IMG/VR virus record: IMGVR_UViG_3300042691_032331 | Location: 1 to 64,000 of that record | Strand: one strand, 5' to 3' | DNA length: 64,000 nt | From: a virus | In this document: piece by piece, positions 453 to 847 of the stretch | Layout: the number at the start of each line of letters is the position of its first letter | Numbering within the stretch: the stretch's first letter is position 1 | Position numbers and translations under genes: made by a program | The notes under the pieces: model-generated | What the model was told of the DNA's origin: nothing | The model's input: the letters and a program-made list of their open reading frames with translations, nothing else | Databases searched by the model: none

Positions 453-575
453 AAGGATAGATACAGCAATACTCTGATATTGGAGGGTTAATTGCATCGG
501 ACGTATAACCTCCGTTAGCGTTAACCAAGGTGAGTTTCGAGTTCTCACTCAAAACAAAAAGTAGAAAGCTATCCT
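453..575 (+). ncRNA. Candidate Y RNA 1 with a tRNA-like T arm
   Basis: No coding frame is evident. The ends pair perfectly: AGGATAG (454-460) with CTATCCT (569-575). Inside are a hairpin at 482-490/506-513 with one bulge, a short GTTA/TAAC hairpin (514-525) and a T-arm-like hairpin, GTGAG (530-534) with CTCAC (544-548), whose loop contains TTCGAGT at 536-542 and fits the tRNA T-loop rule UUCRANY. Bacterial Y RNAs (YrlA) carry a tRNA-like module and are bound by Ro60 orthologues; this RNA lies just upstream of a TROVE-type gene. Y RNA identity is inference. Confidence 0.6.
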
Positions 576-587
576 GTTATTATATTT

Positions 588-785
588 GGATGAGTTCAGC
601 ATCACAAATAACGCTTTATTCTATAGAAGGTGGCTCGTAAGGCTTAATCTAATAGAAATATTAGACACTGAAGGAATAGATAGGCATAGAGAAGCTATGA
701 TATGTTGTCAGTAACAGAAGAATACTGAATGGGTCGTGGATATAAACAGGGCGACCAGAAAATAAATTTCTGTATCCGATCATCC
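588..785 (+). ncRNA. Candidate structured RNA 2, related to RNA 1
   Basis: The 5' GGATGA (588-593) pairs with 3' TCATCC (780-785). Internal hairpins are TCTAATA-GAAA-TATTAGA (648-665, GNRA loop), CATAG/CTATG (685-699), CAGTA/TACTG (709-727) and GGTCG/CGACC (732-756). The 5' strand shares the layout GGAT-N6-CAGCA with RNAs 1 and 3, and the stem covaries between copies. There is no coding frame and no separate promoter, so it is probably cut from a longer transcript. Confidence 0.5.
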
Positions 786-800
786 AGTTTTACAAGTTTT

Positions 801-847
801 AGGATGCTAACAGCAATTATACTTTATGCGAAAAAGTAATGCATCCT
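801..847 (+). ncRNA. Candidate structured RNA 3, minimal copy
   Basis: AGGATGC (801-807) pairs with GCATCCT (841-847), and TACTTT (820-825) with AAAGTA (833-838). The shared CAGCA follows the 5' stem strand. It ends 28 nt before the TROVE start codon, so it may instead be a 5'-UTR element controlling that gene, for example a site where the protein binds its own mRNA. Confidence 0.45.

Follow-up and report, generated by a model that had tools for sequence, protein, structure and literature searches.

The closest described systems are the Ro ribonucleoproteins of bacteria and vertebrates. The rsr-yrlBA-rtcBA operon of Salmonella is induced by tRNA cleaved in its anticodon loop, and its authors suggest that the small RNA YrlA may inhibit the nuclease responsible (PMC7790460). 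In vertebrate Y RNAs the Ro site consists of a 7-bp end helix beside an asymmetric distortion (PMC4726728). Ro-like proteins encoded by phages have been noted earlier (PMC7824862, PMC7765460). Here we describe a locus at the beginning of the IMG/VR virus record IMGVR_UViG_3300042691_032331 (positions 1–64,000; these 64,000 nt are referred to as the window) in which three consecutive small RNAs precede the gene of a Ro60-like protein. We consider it likely, with a probability of about 0.75, that this locus specifies a ribonucleoprotein of the Ro/Y-RNA type, belonging to a divergent Ro lineage which has its own class of Y RNA. The features concerned are the following.

454–575, + strand: RNA1 (“mid” class), end helix (helix X) 454–460/569–575, CAGCAA at 464–469, three-arm interior
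587–786, + strand: RNA2 (“long” class), helix X 587–593/780–786, CAGCA at 597–601
801–847, + strand: RNA3 (“short” class), helix X 801–807/841–847, CAGCAA at 811–816, one inner hairpin
875–2293, + strand: Ro60-like protein of 472 amino acids (DUF2828 + DUF7788; phrog_850 “RNA-binding protein”)

All three RNAs, which are 122 nt (RNA1), 200 nt (RNA2) and 47 nt (RNA3) in length and lie between a tRNA-Ser gene on the 5' side and the 472-residue gene on the 3' side, share a common order consisting of the 5' arm of a 7-bp end helix, three unpaired nucleotides and CAGCA. The initial annotation of this stretch, made from the sequence alone, had already recognised three elements with pairing ends. In each of them helix X is perfect over seven base pairs (AGGATAG/CTATCCT in RNA1, TGGATGA/TCATCCA in RNA2 and AGGATGC/GCATCCT in RNA3), including RNA2, for which only six of the seven pairs had been noted. 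The 5' motif described there as GGAT-N6-CAGCA is present as well, its spacer actually comprising five nucleotides. No open reading frame of at least 50 codons exists between 430 and 874, in agreement with the earlier statement that the region preceding the gene is non-coding. Within RNA1, a T-arm-like hairpin (529–549) carries a stem which covaries in relatives, while its loop, to which the UUCRANY pattern had been attributed, is a weaker point: it is folded as a 9-nt loop (UUUCGAGUU) and in relatives departs at times from UUCRA (UUUGGA, AGUGAUGGC). The interior of RNA2 comprises about 180 nt forming several hairpins and is conserved in an alignment of 40 relatives. Gaps in this alignment are not multiples of three, which rules out RNA2 as a coding sequence. 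In RNA3 the inner hairpin (ACUUU-AUGCGAA-AAAGU, 821–837) has the shape of an anticodon stem-loop with the triplet GCG. Folded as single sequences, the RNAs are only mildly more stable than shuffled controls (z = -2.3 for RNA1, -1.4 for RNA2 and -2.4 for RNA3), so that the claim of structured RNAs rests on comparative evidence.

This comparative evidence is provided by relatives of the locus. Among 80 close IMG/VR relatives nearly all possess one to three module elements at the same place, the helices of which are altered yet complementary, with A-U, G-C or U-A as the outermost pair. In most of them an element of the RNA3 class is found just upstream of the gene, about 80 nt 5' of the start codon. 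For 46 RNA3 orthologs, 95.9% of the helix X cells are paired compared to 90.4% after shuffling, and 22 double changes are counted where 4.4 are expected; a slide control likewise supports helix X. In 22 relatives of RNA1 the corresponding values are 100% of cells paired versus 87%. Hence, the compensatory variation which the initial annotation had read from the three copies of a single locus recurs across orthologs, and conservation of the stems in relatives, the lack of which it had named beforehand as refuting its reading, is indeed found. As a further measure we asked how often CAGCAA is accompanied by a partner strand, that is, a downstream 7-nt complement followed by G, with a shuffled heptamer as control. 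Near the gene this applies to 102 of 128 distinct sites (shuffles: mean 0.8, maximum 4 of 200), and inside the gene to 1 of 51. In a second, S13-like phage group, whose proteins show 49–57% identity to that of S13 and where the module is mostly found immediately 3' of the gene, 49 of 107 sites have such a partner, as do 111 of 212 in bacterial genomes, the latter supplemented by 28 capped hairpins. Across lineages both sides of every helix pair vary; since these elements were preselected by complementarity, it is this variety alone which is informative.

With R1, a covariance model built on the short form, the module could be searched for irrespective of its position. Some of the records tested had also supplied training sequences; thus the match of the model to RNA3 (E = 7e-8) concerns one of its own training sequences. 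All 17 genomes whose DUF7788 gene is clear contain R1 matches, namely the complete set of 16 such phage and virus records and, in addition, Aeh1; of six genomes without the gene none does. Neither a DUF7788 gene nor an R1 match is present in T4 and phiKZ, and of five further phages chosen as negatives four lack both, Aeh1 unexpectedly containing both. GAP32, Munch, KVP40, Milchi and Aeh1 carry most weight as no R1 training sequence stems from them. In GAP32, Munch and KVP40 copies of the module are found at a distance from the gene. The module therefore is a conserved, covarying companion of this gene in unrelated phages of different families and, among bacteria, in gut-dwelling Clostridia. 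As a side observation, the stable RNAs C and D of T4 (rnaC and rnaD; L267, 909–1172), which reside in its tRNA cluster, do not match the module. When ten TROVE (PF05731) loci were scanned for the motif, no clear instance emerged, and the scattered P-type matches resemble chance. TROVE itself was encountered in 8 of 200 sampled Pseudomonadota genomes (L257–L264) with an Rfam YrlA at one of these eight loci; Y RNAs at the other seven may have gone unrecognised.

The protein is predicted to adopt the Ro60 fold, with a ring of helical repeats and a vWA domain. Its sequence layout consists of HEAT-like helices followed by a vWA domain with the MIDAS motif DVSGSM (276–281), of which D276, S278 and S280 (DxSxS) do not vary in either of two alignments, comprising 14 and 32 sequences. 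An AlphaFold2 model built with 32 relatives reached a pLDDT of 85.5 and a pTM of 0.83. When the PDB was searched with this model, the best seven matches were all Ro60/TROVE structures (E = 4e-9 to 2e-5, TM at most 0.65), among them Xenopus Ro with RNA, human Ro60, Deinococcus Rsr and Ro60 of Thermus phage phiLo. The designation as a TROVE gene in the initial annotation thus agrees with the predicted fold but not with the Pfam sequence family, which is DUF2828/DUF7788. As 13 bacterial genomes which carry DUF2828 lack TROVE, the DUF2828/DUF7788 protein looks like an alternative, divergent Ro lineage. At least 675 phage records contain the gene under no more than the name “RNA-binding protein” or DUF2828, including those of Felix O1-like phages, Listeria P100, KVP40 and mycobacteriophages; annotators of the last use the term “Ro-like RNA binding protein”. 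Two features characteristic of Y RNAs are found in its companion: the RNAs adjoin the Ro-like gene and are conserved with it, and their 5' and 3' ends form a stem with an adjoining asymmetric loop. The earlier proposal of Y RNAs or a multi-copy Ro ligand is consequently supported in kind, given the predicted Ro60 fold, the conserved multi-copy companion and the module's occurrence on YrlA-shaped permuted tRNAs in relatives (see below), and we infer that the Ro-like protein binds the X-CAGCAA module.

The module itself, composed of the 7-bp end helix, three nucleotides and CAGCAA in the 5' strand together with a 3' strand that is short and rich in A, occurs in four forms. The short form, represented by RNA3, comprises helix X, NNNCAGCAA and one hairpin. 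The second form is a permuted tRNA in which helix X is outermost, followed by the 3' strand of the anticodon stem, the T-arm, an acceptor stem capped by a short loop, and the D-arm; joining of its halves results in tRNAs for Thr, Met, Tyr, Phe, Arg, Ser and Leu. This layout (for example L002:377) equals that of YrlA (RF02553), which was compared at a locus beside a TROVE gene (L261). In the third form helix X, capped by a GNNA tetraloop, is inserted into the 5' strand of a tRNA anticodon stem. Such inserts are present in Ci1, S13 and BUCT-ZZ01 as well as in Lachnospiraceae, where RNAs of this form are arrayed in tandem on the 5' side of the gene. After the insert had been cut out, ARAGORN recognised tRNAs in 33 of 47 cases (one of them spurious and located beside the cut); in the uncut state it finds none of the others, and Rfam scores several uncut RNAs of this form as tRNA. 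The second and third forms are circular permutations of each other. RNA1 and RNA2, with their conserved interiors, constitute the fourth form. With respect to annotation, the Lachnospiraceae arrays (L188, L196, L210, L236, L239, L250, L253 and L254; 40-nt insert, upstream of the DUF2828 gene) are invisible to ARAGORN, and their RNAs may have been miscounted as tRNAs or missed. Annotated tRNA-Ser, tRNA-OTHER and pseudo-tRNA genes of S13 and Ci1 (L088, 14704–14946; L083, 4373–4607) are tRNAs with an inserted module.

Compared to bacterial Rsr/YrlA systems such as the Salmonella operon, the DUF2828 loci share a Ro60-fold protein adjoining small RNAs with pairing ends, a permuted-tRNA interior with capped acceptor in part of the RNAs, and linkage to RNA ligase genes in several phages. 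They differ in the protein family, which is DUF2828/DUF7788 instead of Pfam TROVE, in the 5'-strand NNN-CAGCAA, where YrlA has an AUGC-type loop, and in the occurrence of many copies, of forms reduced to an anticodon-like hairpin and of a form with tRNA ends and an insert in the anticodon arm. The tRNA module of YrlA type (T-arm, capped acceptor and D-arm, with the Ro stem replacing the anticodon) exists in several relatives but not in RNA1 to RNA3, so the likeness to YrlA seen by the initial annotation holds for the layout of relatives, and RNA1, which had been described as tRNA-like, is not itself a tRNA: joining of its halves reveals none, nor does a doubled-interior scan, the sole scan that covered RNA2, reveal one in the latter. 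With vertebrate Y RNAs the window RNAs have the 7-bp end helix beside an asymmetric distortion in common, which is a likeness of structure; the bulged C and the 3-nt bulge of the former are not present as such. Ro60 of phiLo (PDB 9l5y), one of the top five structural matches, is likewise phage-encoded, but was deposited as a TROVE-domain protein and shares only about 17% identity with the window protein. While bacterial Ro/Y-RNA particles and phage Ro-like proteins are known, the RNA class accompanying DUF2828 may be new. Our literature search, which did not extend to Chen et al. 2014 on bacterial Y RNAs, whose abstract reportedly mentions phages, yielded no description of an RNA partner of DUF2828 proteins.

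The inner hairpins were further compared with anticodon arms, requiring a 5-bp stem (a 31-39 mismatch being allowed), a 7-nt loop, U33 and a purine at position 37. Such hairpins are present in 28 of 42 distinct RNA3 orthologs compared to 3.0 expected from dinucleotide shuffles (standard deviation 1.65, maximum 9). A stricter test on 116 non-redundant short elements gave 16 versus 1.1 expected (maximum 4); T-arm-like loops account for three of these 16. At one orthologous position the triplets CAU, UGA, UAU, CCA, GCG, CGA, GUA and UCU are found, on one bacterial tRNA scaffold GUU, GUC, UCU, UAU and CCU, and on one phage scaffold GUA, GAA, GCG, ACG and GGA. Such turnover of triplets on a fixed scaffold is unlike a decoding tRNA and might fit a bait or sensor. 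In Aeromonas phage LAh_6 (L089, 10381–11356, - strand) short elements are densely arrayed around the DUF2828 gene, and two of them carry hairpins that perfectly imitate the anticodon loops of Met(CAU) and Lys(UUU); a gene for RNA ligase 2 is situated about 4 kb away.

Several observations weigh against the assignment to a Ro/Y-RNA system and the function suggested by these mimics. By sequence, the window protein misses Pfam TROVE (PF05731), which is absent from the matches listed up to E = 10, and its match to vWA_Ro60 (E = 0.06) falls below the cut-off. The RNAs miss the Rfam threshold for YrlA: in the covariance search called for by the initial annotation none in the window attained the gathering threshold of 69 bits, the best score among 19 records being 44.7 bits (GAP32). 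Lak-A1 possesses a divergent DUF7788 protein yet yields no module, either with R1 over the whole record or by a scan of the 10 kb around the gene (MK250015, 50301–50852). About half of the CAGCAA sites near the gene in S13-like phages and bacteria are without a strict partner strand. Finally, 14 of the 42 RNA3 relatives have no anticodon-like loop, and the interiors of RNA1 and RNA2, being neither tRNA- nor anticodon-loop-like, fall outside the idea of a decoy.

With regard to function, the Ro-like protein would grip the module much as Ro60 grips the bulged lower stem of Y RNAs, leaving the remainder of each RNA as the effector part. Mimics of tRNA presented on such a particle could capture or sense enzymes which act on tRNA during infection, host anticodon nucleases in the first place and tRNA repair enzymes in the second. 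Presentation of tRNA mimics seems to us the most likely task of the RNAs because their effector parts are repeatedly shaped like tRNAs or anticodon stem-loops and because the triplets vary on a constant scaffold; even so, we propose a tethered decoy or sensor of tRNA or its anticodon only tentatively, at somewhat less than even odds. Another arrangement is suggested by what Ro and Y RNA are known to do in bacteria (PMC4726728, PMC8058203): like those of the Deinococcus RYPER, the RNAs would link the Ro-like ring to PNPase or a different nuclease, or would control access to its cavity, and the tRNA shape would merely serve to dock the RNA-processing enzyme. The YrlA-like layout of relatives agrees with it, but it leaves unexplained both the varying anticodon triplets on fixed scaffolds and the minimal RNAs which keep just an anticodon-like hairpin, and we regard it as rather unlikely. 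We prefer the decoy or sensor over such tethering on account of the Salmonella operon, of proposals that phage tRNAs counter anticodon nucleases (PMC10264068), and of the RNA ligase genes which GAP32, Munch, P100 and LAh_6 carry next to the Ro-like gene or in its vicinity; the remaining probability falls to other uses of this particle. That the widespread Ro-bound RNAs of phages and Clostridia in general are tethered decoys or sensors, their triplets diversified by an arms race with anticodon nucleases, is a similarly tentative extension.

Processing of an intron-like element was likewise considered, the insert form then representing intron-containing tRNA genes and the form with outermost helix giving rise to permuted tRNAs or circular RNAs. 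Perfect anticodon stems are indeed restored once the insert is removed, permuted halves give good tRNAs when joined, and tRNA introns of unknown type have been reported from Lak phages (PMC6784885). These Lak introns are similarly unexplained inserts in phage tRNAs and might be a divergent form of the module, but Lak-A1 is without an R1 match. Moreover, elements of the RNA3 type would leave just about 20 nt to splice, in the permuted forms the acceptor stem is capped and CCA is mostly missing, changes of the anticodon on one scaffold would scramble tRNA identity, and PF09414 and RtcB ligases are absent from the record of the window and from ten relatives, most of which are possibly fragments. 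Splice length, capped stems, anticodon changes and the missing ligase in close relatives led us to abandon tiny introns, permuted tRNAs or circular RNAs as first choice, and we now deem them improbable. That an RNA3-class element precedes the start codon in the majority of close relatives would suit a translational operator in the mRNA leader, formed by helix and CAGCAA and bound by the protein which this mRNA encodes, with RNA1 and RNA2 as leader duplicates. As an exclusive role this appears very improbable in view of the module being downstream of the gene in S13-like phages, far from it in GAP32, Munch and KVP40, and incorporated into tRNA-shaped RNAs. Alongside a decoy or sensor function, RNA3, being next to the ribosome-binding site, may nevertheless let the protein control its own mRNA. 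Overall, the DUF2828 gene is now provided with a predicted fold, with an RNA partner that can be searched for by its signature and with a testable proposal for its role. Two questions of long standing, what Ro/Y RNAs do in bacteria and what tRNA clusters do in phages, would thus be connected with the damage and repair of tRNA. As well-studied laboratory phages carry the gene, the idea can be tested there.

The three-RNA module is embedded in a tRNA cluster, and the surrounding features are these.

310–399, + strand: tRNA-Ser(UGA)
416–444, + strand: sigma-70-like promoter upstream of RNA1 (TTGACT-17-TATAAT), matching the consensus at 11 of 12 bases
2300–2384, + strand: tRNA-Leu(AAG), directly 3' of the Ro-like gene

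The promoter with 17-bp spacing had been reported before and is present, but 1.9 promoter-like sites would arise in the region by chance alone. In Rfam scans of the window and of this region at E up to 10, the three-RNA stretch was matched to no family; a sub-threshold match of RNA3 to Dictyostelium class I RNA was taken as chance. The tRNA-Leu has the anticodon AAG, while the matching tRNA-Leu of several relatives has GAG, and its wobble base may thus have changed relative to these.
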